From NCBI GenBank assembly GCA_008933615.1, contig WBUR01000034.1, positions 1 through 45,928 on the forward strand: DNA of 45,928 bases. The letters run 5' to 3'. This document shows positions 177-22,973 of this stretch, one piece after another; positions within the stretch are counted from its first letter, which is position 1; each line of letters begins with the position of its first letter. Source of the stretch: a bacterium. GTDB lineage: Bacteria > CLD3 > SB21. Under the pieces are notes generated by a model. That model saw nothing but the letters and a program-made list of their open reading frames with translations, was not told the DNA's origin and made no database searches. Position numbers and translations under genes: made by a program.

Positions 177-2687
177 ATGACATCAAAGACTTCAAATATT
201 GAGCATCTCAATAGACAAATACCTCCTGAAGCACATACTGCAATGTACAACTTCCACAAATATTGGTCGAGAAAAACTTGGAATGTTGTCGGTAAGTTTA
301 TAGAGACTTATTGTCCAAAAGGTAAAATTGTATTTGATCCCTTTGGAGGAAGTGGCGTAAGTGCAATTGAGGCATTGAAAATTGGCAGGAAAGCAATTAT
401 TTGTGATTTAAATCCATTAGCTACAGAACTGATCCGCCTAACTATTAAGCCTGTTGCACTACTATCGCTTCAAGAAGCATTTCAACGTGTAGAATCAAAA
501 GTAAAAAAGAAAATTCTTGAGTTATACGAAACTAAGTGTAGAAAATGCAAACATATTTTCCCATTTGACGTTGCCATCTGGAAGGATAATAATATAACGA
601 GCATCAGGTACTATTCTTGTCCAAAATGTGGGGCGTCACAAATGAAAAAAAATCCCCCCATAGTTTTTGATGAGAATAAAATTAAGGAAATTTCAAAACA
701 TAAAATAAAAGAATGGTACCCAGACAATAAATTGTACTACAATGGAATGCCTTTTAAAGAAAAACAAAAATATGAGTCTATAGATGAGTTATTTACAAAA
801 AGAAATTTGTATGCGCTCGCTATTTTGATGGATGCAATCGAGAAGGAACCTAATGCAAGTCTAAAGGATTTTTTGAAAATTGGTTTCACTTCAATTTCTC
901 ATCTCTGCACTAAAATGACTCCCGTTAGGCCAACTAGACCAATGAGTTCCGCATGGACTCAGCATAGTTATTGGTCAGCCAATGAATTCATGGAATCTAA
1001 CGTCTGGGACAAATTTGAAAGTGGGATTACTGGAAAACAAGGGCTTATAAAAGCGAAAGAAGAATCAAATAGTTATTTCGAAGAAATAAAATTCGGAAAA
1101 ACTTTTAAAGACGTAATTGGTGGGGATGCAGATATTTATATTCACGAAGGGTCATGTCTTGATTTGATGAATGAAATGTATAAAACTTATCATGAAAAAG
1201 GCTGTGTAGATTACATTTTTACAGATCCACCATATGATTCATCAATCCAATATGGAGAGTTATCGTATATGTGGGTTGCTTGGTTGGGGAAAGACAAAGA
1301 CTATTTGGAAACAATAGAAAAAGATGAGATAATTCATAATGAAAAGCAAAAAAAGAGTTTCGATGTTTATCACTCATTATTAAAAAACAGCTTCCTAGGA
1401 ATGTTTAATGTCTTAAAGCCAGATCGATATTTAACGCTCACATTTCATAACCCTACTTTTAAAATAAGAAATGCAACCATAAGGGCGGGTGTACTTTCTG
1501 GTTTTGAATTGGAAAAGATTCATCACCAAGAATTAGCTCACTCTTCACCAAAATCATTGCTTCAGCCTTTTGGTTCAGCGCAAGGGGATTTTTACTTGCG
1601 ATTTTATAAGCATGACCTAGGAATTAAGGGAAAAACTCCTGAGGCAATAGACGAGCATCGATTTGAGAAAATTGTTGTTGAAACGACAATAAAAATCCTT
1701 GCTGAGAGGGGCGAGCCAACCCCATATACAATTATTATCAACGCTATTGACCCTGAGTTGACTAGACATGGCTTTTTTTCTGAACTACATTCAGGGCTTG
1801 ATGTAAACGAGGTGCTAAGAAAACATACGGACAAAGAATTTGCTTTGGTGTCTGCAAAAAGTGGTTCAGCTTCCGGTAAGCTTTGGTGGTTTAAGAACCC
1901 TAAACAGGTACCAAATCTTGAAAAGATACCATTAACAGAAAGAGTTGAAAAAACCGTTCTATCACAATTGCAGGCAAAAGGTAAGGTAACATTTACTGAT
2001 ATGTGGGATGCAGTAAGTATTACATTTCCAAATTCACTGACATCAGATCAAACAAGCATAAAAGAAGCATTGGAAGCGTATGCTCGACCAATGCATGGTG
2101 GATTCTGGCTTATAAAATCAAATTTTAAGACAGATGCAATTGAAAAAGAGCATACAACAATCATAGCTTTGCTTGCTGAAATCGGAAGAAAGGAAGGTTA
2201 CTTTGTATACATTGGTAAAAACGAGCAAAGCCACGTTATAAATAGTCCAATATTGAAAAATTCTGGAGCTTTGAGCCAATATATGGATTACAAAGACGTT
2301 TCTAAACTTAAGAACATTCAAAACCCGGACGTCATTGACGACATTGATATTTTGTGGATAAAAGGAAACAGAATTGTTTTTATGTTTGAAATCGAGAGCA
2401 CTACCTCAATGACAAGTGCTTTACAAAGAGGTTCAAATGTTGAGCAATCAGTGACTAAAGTAATGCTCTATCCGGTAGATAGACAAAATCAATTCAATCA
2501 AAAAATGAAATCTCCATTGTTTGGCGAGCGTTTTAAGAGTGATAATTGGAAAATAATATTGTTTGATGTCTTATATGCTAATTGGAGCAAAAATAAGCGA
2601 AATATCGACATTACAAAATTATTTTCTGAACCAACAACTATCAAAGCAAAGAAAAATGTTGACGAAGACCAAATTTTATTGTTTTAA
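177..2687 (+). CDS. DNA methyltransferase with Zn-ribbon and nuclease-like C-terminal domain
   Basis: An 836-residue protein. It has the SAM-binding motif DPFGGSG (residues 54-60) and the catalytic motif DPPY (350-353) of amino-methylating (N6-adenine/N4-cytosine) DNA methylases. Between them is a four-Cys Zn-ribbon (C121, C124, C148, C151). This layout resembles the large DUF1156-type methylases. A helical middle part is followed by a C-terminal segment with D722/D724, F737-E738-I739-E740 and a downstream basic region. That pattern recalls PD-(D/E)XK-like restriction domains (IDxLW...FExE), so the protein could both modify and cut DNA. The gene is clearly AT-richer than its right-hand neighbours, which suggests transfer. 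No separate endonuclease or specificity gene is visible; upstream context is outside the window. The methylase call is firm; the nuclease call is inference. Confidence 0.85.
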   Translation: MTSKTSNIEHLNRQIPPEAHTAMYNFHKYWSRKTWNVVGKFIETYCPKGKIVFDPFGGSGVSAIEALKIGRKAIICDLNPLATELIRLTIKPVALLSLQEAFQRVESKVKKKILELYETKCRKCKHIFPFDVAIWKDNNITSIRYYSCPKCGASQMKKNPPIVFDENKIKEISKHKIKEWYPDNKLYYNGMPFKEKQKYESIDELFTKRNLYALAILMDAIEKEPNASLKDFLKIGFTSISHLCTKMTPVRPTRPMSSAWTQHSYWSANEFMESNVWDKFESGITGKQGLIKAKEESNSYFEEIKFGKTFKDVIGGDADIYIHEGSCLDLMNEMYKTYHEKGCVDYIFTDPPYDSSIQYGELSYMWVAWLGKDKDYLETIEKDEIIHNEKQKKSFDVYHSLLKNSFLGMFNVLKPDRYLTLTFHNPTFKIRNATIRAGVLSGFELEKIHHQELAHSSPKSLLQPFGSAQGDFYLRFYKHDLGIKGKTPEAIDEHRFEKIVVETTIKILAERGEPTPYTIIINAIDPELTRHGFFSELHSGLDVNEVLRKHTDKEFALVSAKSGSASGKLWWFKNPKQVPNLEKIPLTERVEKTVLSQLQAKGKVTFTDMWDAVSITFPNSLTSDQTSIKEALEAYARPMHGGFWLIKSNFKTDAIEKEHTTIIALLAEIGRKEGYFVYIGKNEQSHVINSPILKNSGALSQYMDYKDVSKLKNIQNPDVIDDIDILWIKGNRIVFMFEIESTTSMTSALQRGSNVEQSVTKVMLYPVDRQNQFNQKMKSPLFGERFKSDNWKIILFDVLYANWSKNKRNIDITKLFSEPTTIKAKKNVDEDQILLF

Positions 2688-20662: not shown

Positions 20663-21802
20663 ATGAAATCAGTATCATTTCTCTTTGGTTCTGGTATCTC
20701 AATTTCGGGCGGCCTGCCATCTACTAGCGCAATAACAGAATTTCTATTGTCCACAAAAAAGGTCTTTCATCATACAGACAATACTTTCATTTTTGATGAA
20801 CCCCGTATTTTCTTGACAAAAAAGGATGAAATTGTTCAACGTGTTCAGAAGTTGTTAGACATTCTAAGATCATCAATCGATCAAAATTTTGAACCCCCAC
20901 TTACTATTAACTATGAAGACATTTATGCACTTGCAGACGAAATTGATCGAAAACGCTATCGAAATCCTCTTGTTAGAAAGTTTTTGAAAGAAATTGATCC
21001 CCAACTAAGAAAGCTTTTAAGCAAAGATGAAGATAGAATCCTTGACAATTTATATGCTGAACAGCTTGGTATTCCTCTCTATCTAACAGAAGACTACTCC
21101 TTTGACGAATTAATTAGCTGGGCAAAAGATTACATACATTACGGCGTTGAGCAATTACTGTGGAAAGAACCAAAATCTTTAGATTATCTCCATTCTATTT
21201 TAGAAGCATGTAAGGATGATCAGATAAATATTAAAGCAATTTTCACACTGAATCACGATTTATTCTTAGAACAACTGTTAACCAATCATATAGAAATCGG
21301 ATTTAACGAGGCGAATGATGACATCCAACTTTGGAACTCCAATAAATTCACAGATAATCACAATAGAATTCCATTACTCAAACTTCATGGCTCAATAAAT
21401 TGGCACAATTTTAAAGTAAAAGGTGTGTATAGATTGGGAATCCCGACGAGAACAGACTGGAATCATTACAAAACATATGAAAGCCAAAAGTCTGTTATTT
21501 TAATTGGCTCTTCAAACAAAGTCTCTGATTATTACCAAGATACTTTTTTTGAATTACACAATTTGTTTAAAAAATATCTTTTCCAATCTGATTACTTGAT
21601 AATTTCAGGATATGGGTTTGGCGATATCGGCATCAATCTCAGAATCAGCGAATGGTTAATTAATGGCCGCCATAGAAAAGTTATTTTGATTCATCCAGAT
21701 CCGAAATCTGTGTTACGTTCAACTGAACAAGACAATATAATTTTATTGAAACAAAAAATTGATGATATTCAGTGGTCAGAAATACTAAGTATGATGAGAT
21801 AA
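20663..21802 (+). CDS. SIR2-like NADase-type protein, probable anti-phage effector
   Basis: 379 residues. The SIR2-like (SIR2_2) fold is shown by FGSGIS (8-13, NAD-binding loop), TLNHD (195-199), LHGS with likely catalytic His242 (241-244) and SGYGFGD (315-321). A helical insert (~60-185) separates the first motif from the rest. SIR2-like proteins of this kind are NAD+-degrading effectors of many bacterial defence systems; whether this one acts so is inference. The gene is AT-rich against its left neighbour and follows a duplicated promoter. A four-helix membrane protein gene lies 106 bases downstream, same strand, and is the most likely partner. Confidence 0.85.
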   Translation: MKSVSFLFGSGISISGGLPSTSAITEFLLSTKKVFHHTDNTFIFDEPRIFLTKKDEIVQRVQKLLDILRSSIDQNFEPPLTINYEDIYALADEIDRKRYRNPLVRKFLKEIDPQLRKLLSKDEDRILDNLYAEQLGIPLYLTEDYSFDELISWAKDYIHYGVEQLLWKEPKSLDYLHSILEACKDDQINIKAIFTLNHDLFLEQLLTNHIEIGFNEANDDIQLWNSNKFTDNHNRIPLLKLHGSINWHNFKVKGVYRLGIPTRTDWNHYKTYESQKSVILIGSSNKVSDYYQDTFFELHNLFKKYLFQSDYLIISGYGFGDIGINLRISEWLINGRHRKVILIHPDPKSVLRSTEQDNIILLKQKIDDIQWSEILSMMR

Positions 21803-21908
21803 CCTATCAACAATAGAATTATGGCCACAATCTTATTAACAATTGCCTCAACAATAACTTACGTATAAGAGACGAACCAATTTTGAAGCCTTTTAAACAT
21901 ATCAAACA

Positions 21909-22973
21909 ATGAATAAGTCAACTTCAAGTCTTAAAACCACTTCCGATCACATTTCATCAATACAATATATCTTTATTGGACTATTAATTTTCGACTTCAT
22001 TGCATTGTGTATTGTCATTCAACTTTCGCCTTTTAACCCAACCGAGCTTCAGATCGAGTTATCAAACTTCAAGCAACACATAGAAAGATGTCAACGTGTT
22101 GATTTAGATTCCTTTTTTATAGCCGAGCAATACAAACCCAAACTCACTAGACACCTTGAAAGGAAAATCAACTTGTCCTTCAACTTAAAATTGGACGAAG
22201 GAAATCTTTTTAATATTCAAAACAGCCAAACTAACTTGGTTAAGAATTTTTCGGCCGCTGATAATCTCACTACTCTTAGAAACGCACTTCTTAACTCATC
22301 ATCACAATACTCAATCGTTGATTCCTTTGAACAAAATTTTGATGATATAAATGCTACCTTCTCTGATCAGAGCGTTACAATTACTCTTAATACCGTTTTG
22401 TGGTCAGCAGATCAGTGTAGTATTCAAGTCTCATCTCCAACTCTAACAAAAGGATTTTTAAAGCCTTTTAGTAAATCCATAGTGAATTTTCATGTCGATG
22501 AGCACTGGTTTGAAGACAGATATCCTTTCATGGCTCAAAACTGGAAGCACATTAATGACAAAACATTCGCAAAGGCTTATCTAGCAATTCAAAACCAACG
22601 TATCGAAGAATTAAAATCAATTAATATAGTTCCGTATGGTAATTTTTCTATGTCTGGTTTTTTGTTTCTTATTATTTATCCTTTCATGTTTCTTATTGTA
22701 ATTTCCTATATATGGTGGCATTTAAAAGTTCTACACCGTACCGCAAATGACAAAAAAATCTCATTGACCCCATCGAGATGGCTTGGCATTACAAAAACTC
22801 CCGGGCGTTATTTCAATTGGGTAATTCTTTGCTGTGCGCCGTTTTTTATCTGTTATCTTCCGCTCGACCAGATTATTGGATTACGTGGAAGCTCCAATGT
22901 TGTTTTTGCTATTTGGTTTTTCTTTACTTTTATTTGCGCTTATAAAATAAATAATTTTATTAAAAAGGTGTAA
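21909..22973 (+). CDS. Four-TM membrane protein, possible partner of the SIR2-like protein
   Basis: 354 residues. One helix at ~18-40, an extracytoplasmic region of ~210 residues with no recognised domain, then helices at ~250-270, 301-319 and 331-350. AT-rich like the SIR2-like gene and on the same strand; only a short AT-rich stretch separates them. No family recognised. A membrane sensor or pore working with the SIR2-like protein is one possibility; an unrelated passenger gene is another. No visible ribosome site before ATG 21909. Confidence 0.65.
   Translation: MNKSTSSLKTTSDHISSIQYIFIGLLIFDFIALCIVIQLSPFNPTELQIELSNFKQHIERCQRVDLDSFFIAEQYKPKLTRHLERKINLSFNLKLDEGNLFNIQNSQTNLVKNFSAADNLTTLRNALLNSSSQYSIVDSFEQNFDDINATFSDQSVTITLNTVLWSADQCSIQVSSPTLTKGFLKPFSKSIVNFHVDEHWFEDRYPFMAQNWKHINDKTFAKAYLAIQNQRIEELKSINIVPYGNFSMSGFLFLIIYPFMFLIVISYIWWHLKVLHRTANDKKISLTPSRWLGITKTPGRYFNWVILCCAPFFICYLPLDQIIGLRGSSNVVFAIWFFFTFICAYKINNFIKKV

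Follow-up and report, generated by a model that had tools for sequence, protein, structure and literature searches.

Can one gene at the end of a bacterial contig supply both halves of a restriction-modification (R-M) system? The question is raised by an open reading frame (ORF) at positions 177-2687 of a 45,928-nucleotide stretch (the window; contig WBUR01000034.1 of assembly GCA_008933615.1), in which an earlier reading made from the letters alone, the sequence-only reading, had seen a methylase fused to a nuclease-like C-terminal domain. We consider it likely, from sequence comparison and structural models, that this gene encodes a single-chain, Type IIC/IIG-like R-M enzyme with its domains in the order methylase-nuclease, a function that is predicted. 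Domain composition, predicted fold, residue conservation and gene pairing were computed; from these we infer a DNA substrate, an N6-adenine target, cleavage, a specificity shared by the two activities, and the role of a small UPF0758_N protein (the mini-protein) encoded beside most bacterial relatives examined.

Translation of the window gave an unbroken frame of 836 amino acids at 177-2687 on the forward (+) strand, to which all feature coordinates below refer, and no frame of 80 amino acids or more lies opposite it. The gene begins 176 bases from the end of its contig (C34 of the genome). A genome scan yielded 582 matches to the pattern, along with 551 relatives; 80 of the relatives were kept. 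In L026-L081 the same fusion is found, either nearly full-length or cut, and a 52-row alignment of the family (A6), including the window protein, is the basis of all counts out of 52. The DPFGGSG and DPPY motifs do occur in one polypeptide at the residue numbers first reported. The N-terminal half of the methylase (residues 27-82, positions 255-422) contains a Pfam N6_N4_Mtase match (residues 33-82, 3e-12) and motif I, DPFGGSG (residues 54-60, positions 336-356), of which D54, G58 and G60 are invariant, while the catalytic DPPY (residues 350-353, positions 1224-1235), identical in 52/52 rows, follows about 290 residues later, which is the alpha order. The best PADLOC model for the whole protein was PglXI (6e-42), followed by Type II methylases (MTase_II).

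Of the ten Foldseek rows with E ≤ 0.001 for the full-length AlphaFold2 model (mean predicted local distance difference test score, pLDDT, 86; predicted template modelling score, pTM, 0.82), eight were E. coli Dam entries. A second aligner, VIA, instead placed the tRNA methylases Trm11, Trm14 and TrmN on top (Z 15.7-16.7), and given this ranking the methylase fold alone leaves the choice between DNA and RNA substrates unsettled. That the enzyme methylates RNA in the manner of these proteins is nonetheless extremely improbable: Dam heads the Foldseek list, the best matches of the family profile to PDB sequences are the DNA methylases RsrI, CcrM, MboIIA and DpnA, and the same chain carries a helix-turn-helix (HTH)-like region, a Zn-ribbon insert and a restriction-type nuclease domain.

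Motif I is separated from DPPY by an insert, the predicted target-recognition region, which holds the four-Cys Zn ribbon that the sequence-only reading had placed there (residues 118-151, positions 528-629). Its cysteines, C121 and C124 of CRKC (121-124) and C148 and C151 of CPKC (148-151), lie on or adjoin predicted β-strands, and the full set is present in 47/52 rows; the ribbon is altered in L041 and L077 and absent from L095, L105 and L009. Residues 493-646 (positions 1653-2114) form an HTH plus winged-HTH-like region according to the secondary structure of the model, from which the domain names are taken.

This arrangement resembles that of BrxXI/PglXI from type-3 bacteriophage exclusion (BREX) systems. 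In the sections consulted of a 2026 survey (PMC12839542), BrxXI is described as a Dam-like core with a target-recognition insert of about 250 residues, at whose apex sits a 4C Zn finger, and then three HTH-like domains; its authors found homologs of the insert nowhere outside BREX systems. The two proteins thus share a Dam-like, alpha-order N6 methylase, a large Zn-finger insert and HTH/winged-HTH domains, the latter assigned here from secondary structure. BrxXI differs in ending with three HTH domains and in working with BREX genes, whereas the window protein adds a PD-(D/E)XK-like domain. The sequence-only reading, which held that a one-protein R-M enzyme with a Zn ribbon in its methylase would be uncommon, is supported with a correction: the predicted domains favor a single-chain enzyme, but a Zn finger in such an insert has already been published for BrxXI (PMC12839542, as consulted).

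Could the protein instead belong to a system of several genes like BREX, with the nuclease as an add-on? The PglXI match of its methylase half points that way, as does a 27%-identical relative on an archaeal (Halorarius) plasmid, L007, which adjoins BrxA-family and PglZ-domain genes and itself matches PglXI at 1e-85; this relative was not among the matches of the nuclease-domain profile. We nevertheless regard this role as quite improbable. The mini-protein was the only widely common neighbor across 57 loci, and brxC, pglZ, brxHII and other BREX genes were not seen there as common neighbors. No BREX gene was recognized by eye among the window ORFs, the upstream side being cut off by the contig end, and the sole PglZ-domain gene found in the genome lies on another contig (C9), has a receiver-like domain first and was read as PorX-like. 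Related Zn-insert methylases without the nuclease domain (about 30% identical) also occur on plasmids of Kurthia (L003) and Thiospirochaeta (L004), each adjoining a divergent DUF2357 gene that is paired with an AAA ATPase in the former and a hypothetical gene in the latter; we take these pairs to have a McrBC/LlaJI-like appearance.

What distinguishes the window protein is its C-terminal domain (CTD). Residues 652-806 (positions 2130-2594) are predicted to be a PD-(D/E)XK-fold nuclease with D-x13-E-x-E as the active site, an assignment that forms part of the R-M reading which we judge likely as a whole. The domain is delimited by its model (pLDDT about 90), its structural matches and its profile matches to stand-alone relatives. 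Residues 646-836, modeled alone from 52 sequences (pLDDT 89.7, pTM 0.85), have a core of α-β-β-β-α-β in PD-(D/E)XK order (H4-27, E31-34, E80-84, E87-94, H100-107, E115-120), with two short helices separating the first two strands. The predicted catalytic Asp, D724 (positions 2346-2348), stands just ahead of one strand, and the predicted catalytic pair E738-x-E740 (positions 2388-2396) ends the next. H659, D724, E738, E740, T743 and R751 are identical in 52/52 rows, as are DPPY, G58 and G60, with CTD identity falling to 18% and whole-chain identity to 24%; D724, E738 and E740 are also invariant in a seven-row alignment of the window protein, L009 and five stand-alone proteins. As judged from these alignments, conservation of the methylase and C-terminal residues is far greater than expected by chance. 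The sequence-only reading had described the region as D-x-D-x-L-W...F-E-x-E: the motifs DIDILW (residues 722-727) and FEIE (737-740) are indeed present and the three acidic residues that it singled out are universal, but the first Asp, D722, is found in only 18/52 rows. Its suggestion of a PD-(D/E)XK-like C-terminus was likewise upheld by structure prediction, which gave a nuclease-like fold with modest restriction-enzyme matches. Neither of the outcomes that it had named as refuting, a fold unlike a nuclease or unconserved acidic residues, was obtained. An orphan methylase with a random tail was rejected, the CTD being conserved in near full-length relatives down to 24% identity and recurring as an independent protein.

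Several observations weigh against our interpretation, in addition to the tRNA-methylase ranking above. D724 and E738 fit the PD-(D/E)XK catalytic pattern, but the usual Lys of ExK is replaced by the invariant Glu740. Foldseek of the CTD against the PDB returned EcoT38I in its first row at an E value of 0.018 and probability 0.90, a modest match, and among the rows listed the others have probabilities of 0.4 or less. VIA ranked the small subunit of R.BspD6I (Z 7.7), EcoT38I (7.3) and Nt.BspD6I (6.9) highest, then AF1548 (6.7, of unknown function by its title), BsaWI (6.6) and a CRISPR ancillary nuclease (6.3), with AF2093, OkrAI and the reductase YihU at 6.0; between 5 and 6, BstEII, NucC, McrBC, HindIII and PspGI are interspersed with unrelated proteins. 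Non-nucleases therefore reach the same range (YihU equals OkrAI, and imine reductases score 5.1-5.4), and every CTD score is below 8, a level that according to the tool can reflect a common arrangement. The CTD sequence profile had no match in the PDB up to an E value of 10. Because of the low VIA scores, the nuclease assignment was made to rest on the concordance of fold, residues and sequence.

A rival possibility is that the methylase is active while the C-terminal module, although of PD-(D/E)XK fold, is catalytically dead or does not cut and serves to bind DNA or nucleotides, making the protein an orphan methylase or a sensor. The ExE pair in place of ExK and the modest structural matches would suit such a module. 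Against it, the six C-terminal residues are invariant in 52/52 rows at CTD identities down to 18%, and in five stand-alone relatives. An ExE active-site pair is moreover known in BamHI, where E111 belongs to the pair, and the source consulted in part describes the BamHI double mutant D94N/E113K as cleavage-deficient. Inactive restriction endonuclease domains of BrxHII helicases have been proposed as sensors, which offers a precedent for a dead module, but the inactive BrxHII domain is described as one whose motif has been lost (PMC12839542, sections consulted). We therefore consider a dead module unlikely, and prefer a cutting nuclease.

Does the nuclease domain have a life outside the fusion? 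A tblastn search with residues 652-836 gave hits in 30 plasmid records, the best at an E value of 1e-6; in 13 of these the hit lies under a gene annotated as a type II restriction endonuclease. A CTD profile built from the fused family only recovered 7/7 of the stand-alone proteins examined (L019-L025; E values 4e-24 to 2e-17), six of which carry that annotation, and the five that were aligned keep the equivalents of H659, D724, E738, E740, T743 and R751. These proteins, of about 420 amino acids, have a middle part that appears helix-hairpin-helix (HhH)-like by eye and an N-terminal part unlike the fused protein, and carry the same nuclease domain on a chain without a methylase; the gene tables of the seven fetched stretches, which are incomplete, held no DNA methylase annotation. 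Searched against the PDB, one stand-alone nuclease gave only weak, irrelevant matches to spike proteins. Metal-resistance or efflux genes lie near the stand-alone gene in six of the seven plasmid records, L020 being the exception. Across 297 genomes of one phylum, at an E value of 1e-8, the domain was present in 21, as the fused family in 4 and as other frames in 17, of which 16 were fetched for context. Short N6_N4_Mtase fragments were found directly upstream of one (L188) and about 0.7 kb from another (L187, under the Pfam cut-off).

One of two such frames tested, L180 but not L177, joins the nuclease domain to a Pfam EVE domain, and EVE domains are often linked to modified bases. This fusion is compatible with a modification-dependent scheme, in which the methylase would place a mark on DNA and the nuclease would be directed against DNA bearing this or a different mark, along the lines of a proposal for Pgl; a model of this kind is discussed in the sections consulted of PMC12839542. 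For the window protein we find such a scheme highly improbable: a constitutive one-chain enzyme of this type would be expected to cut its own chromosome, and searches of the window protein revealed neither an EVE domain nor any other reader domain.

Among characterized systems, the single-chain R-M reading is best compared with Type IIC/IIG enzymes such as Eco57I, MmeI and TkoI (PMC4081073 and PMC8172983, both consulted in part), which likewise combine methylase and nuclease in one polypeptide, the domains here being predicted. According to the portion of PMC4081073 consulted, Type IIC/IIG enzymes methylate host sites and cut unmodified DNA away from the recognition site. The majority have an N-terminal nuclease and a gamma-class (NPPY) methylase, whereas the window protein is reversed and of alpha order. 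Its unusual layout has a precedent, the one named in that review (PMC4081073, as consulted): BtgZI, an atypical Type IIC enzyme with an N-terminal alpha-class methylase and a C-terminal PD-D/EXK variant. By description the two are alike in layout and differ in that Q is said to replace E in BtgZI while the window protein has ExE. No BrxXI-like methylase fused to a nuclease was found among the open-licence literature matches listed, or by a term search of PMC12839542.

We propose that residues 1-480 would act as a DNA methylase of alpha order that targets N6-adenine, with the Zn ribbon in its target-recognition insert, and that residues 490-646 would supply HTH/winged-HTH-like DNA-binding modules. 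One recognition module could then serve both activities: host sites would be methylated, and unmethylated sites in incoming DNA would be bound and cut by the tethered nuclease, probably at a distance from the site as in Type IIC/IIG enzymes. In most of the bacterial relatives examined, the co-oriented mini-protein would be a likely second subunit, perhaps a sensor of DNA structure or a loading factor.

The mini-protein emerged from clustering of neighboring genes at 57 loci, where it was present in 38 at first count; the next cluster covered 6 loci at scattered positions. As the only widely common neighbor, it leaves the enzyme otherwise stand-alone. A profile search then placed it at 43 of the 56 loci L026-L081 and also at L085. 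In every case it is encoded on the strand of the enzyme, and its distance upstream of the matched start is 33-101 bp, with a median of 53 (the frameshifted copy L074 excluded). The 13 loci without it comprise six archaeal loci, L067, which is cut at its start, and L027, L029, L034, L060, L062 and L068, so that it is present at 43/49 assessable bacterial loci. All 28 mini-proteins scanned matched Pfam UPF0758_N, which represents the N-terminal RadC domain and contains HhH motifs, and the RadC C-terminal domain was not among the families matched by these 28; in several the unit is doubled, as seen by eye. PDB matches of the mini-protein profile include regions of topoisomerase V, Hef, DisA and XPF, and by analogy with HhH domains elsewhere it may sense DNA structure.

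The window itself lacks the partner. A profile search of its 176 upstream bases (positions 1-176) found no mini-protein gene, and the sole UPF0758_N match in the genome is an ordinary full-length RadC. Bases 25-56, at the contig end, form a repeat with G/C runs that occurs again on contigs C18, C20 and C71, and this recurrence makes a displaced partner beyond the contig end possible. On a quick tree, with the window scored as absent, presence of the mini-protein switches 6 times. Missing beside the window gene, six archaeal and six bacterial loci, it may not be essential, a further point against our interpretation.

No second partner was apparent. Of 178 listed flanking proteins, 81 were scanned for defence partners, and among the best 25 of 98 PADLOC families no model matched more than 2/81; the leaders, models for Type IIG and for Type II methylases, matched 2 proteins, and candidate-defence models matched 1 each. 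The best 25 of 150 Pfam families were led by phosphoglucomutase (3), with Eco57I, epimerase, GAF, TPR and others at 2 each. Two flanking genes are thus R-M enzymes themselves, and no common defence partner appeared among these families for the 81 proteins. A GAF-like gene lies directly downstream in L052, L053 and L074 and at a distance of 3 kb in L072; a phosphoglucomutase gene lies downstream in L028, L060 and L062.

Is the mini-protein confined to this family? In ten genomes of family members, we found three more short mini-proteins away from the family, the remaining UPF0758_N matches being RadC-sized frames or second units, plus one 608-amino acid frame. Each of the three directly precedes an enzyme of 1039-1169 amino acids (L123, L124, L125); those of L123 and L124 match Pfam Eco57I and N6_Mtase, L125 is 64% identical to L124, and PADLOC calls the L124 relatives L142 and L146 REase_MTase_IIG. 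A search of 395 genomes of one phylum at an E value of 1e-28, a threshold that favors mini-proteins resembling those of the family so that the figures are no census, found it in 15. Downstream lay the methylase-nuclease family in 4 (apparently all already among the 80 loci), L124-related Type IIG-like enzymes in 6 (L145 is cut by its contig; L142 lies at a distance of about 0.45 kb) and Eco57I/TaqI_C-type enzymes in 2 (L147, L150). In 1 the mini-protein is followed by an operon with an HsdR-like first gene (L151, with HsdS- and HsdM-like genes by eye). The remaining two were a 75-amino acid match at a contig end (L152) and a copy whose neighbor has no Pfam family (L153). In the phylum of the L030 genome, only 2/395 genomes have the mini-protein, both beside the methylase-nuclease family, and one of them is the L030 genome itself. 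At L185:3588-4996, a mini-protein directly precedes a 303-amino acid nuclease-domain protein without a methylase.

The same mini-protein thus precedes a Type I-like operon as well as Type IIG-like enzymes, which places the family in an R-M context. Tentatively, and with doubts that we judge to outweigh the case for it, we suggest that the mini-protein could be an unrecognised accessory R-M subunit common to unrelated enzymes (the methylase-nuclease of alpha order, Type IIG enzymes resembling Eco57I, and an operon of Type I-like character), steering cleavage by sensing DNA structure or guarding the host. Its pairing with methylase-nuclease enzymes and its recurrence before other R-M types are new here: no account of R-M enzymes with a partner of the UPF0758_N or RadC-N kind was found among the open-licence literature matches listed, nor in the sections consulted of PMC5512222 and PMC12458937.

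How did the gene reach this genome? Its G+C content (GC) is 0.346 against 0.432 for the remaining window, and its GC at third codon positions 0.294 against 0.43-0.55 in eleven other window ORFs; the low GC fits the expectation for an acquired gene. It is single-copy, with one full match in its own genome, and an own-phylum scan at an E value of 1e-20 was positive in 1/9 genomes, the window's own. Fusion hosts include Bacteroidota, Planctomycetota, Lentisphaerota, Nitrospirota, Thermodesulfobacteriota, Myxococcota, other bacteria and archaea, and the distribution of relatives over these phyla is patchy. On the quick tree, 21 phylum groups need 26 changes (minimum 20, shuffled mean 33.8), clustered but not cleanly so, with 5 in Bacteroidota, 3 in Planctomycetota and 3 in Ignavibacteriota, and in each of these three phyla at least 3 changes are imposed by starred branches; the tree carries flagged long branches and, as the tool cautions, does not prove transfer. 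Measured by path, the window protein lies closest to a Brocadiaceae protein and to several proteins from Bacteroidota, Lentisphaerota and planctomycetes. Together, the pattern of labels on the tree, the GC deviation and the absence from sister genomes suggest some horizontal transfer. Single-protein patterns revealed no close viral homologs; an alignment-based viral search gave 11 loci, of which L009 alone has the nuclease domain by profile. This 870-amino acid relative, on a phage-like contig (L009:5710-8319), has the methylase, the HTH-like region and the nuclease motif without the Zn ribbon, and lies near genes judged by eye from their ORFs to be terminase- and portal-like.

Elsewhere in the window, positions 20663-22973, a stretch low in GC (0.38-0.39), encode a SIR2_2-domain protein (379 amino acids, Pfam 4e-10) followed by a membrane-like protein without a Pfam family; the two are possibly a defence pair.

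The family connects the BREX type-3 methylase, which has been described as belonging to a system of several genes, with a candidate restriction enzyme that is complete in one gene, and suggests how a Zn-finger target-recognition insert can be re-used. Its members are compact candidates for new cutting specificities. The recurrence of a RadC-N-like partner beside several R-M types provides a testable handle on the role of that domain. If the mini-protein is indeed an accessory R-M subunit, the methylase-nuclease family would be its best-defined partner, and the association would suggest that the corresponding domain in RadC, a protein of disputed function, has a role connected with DNA structure.

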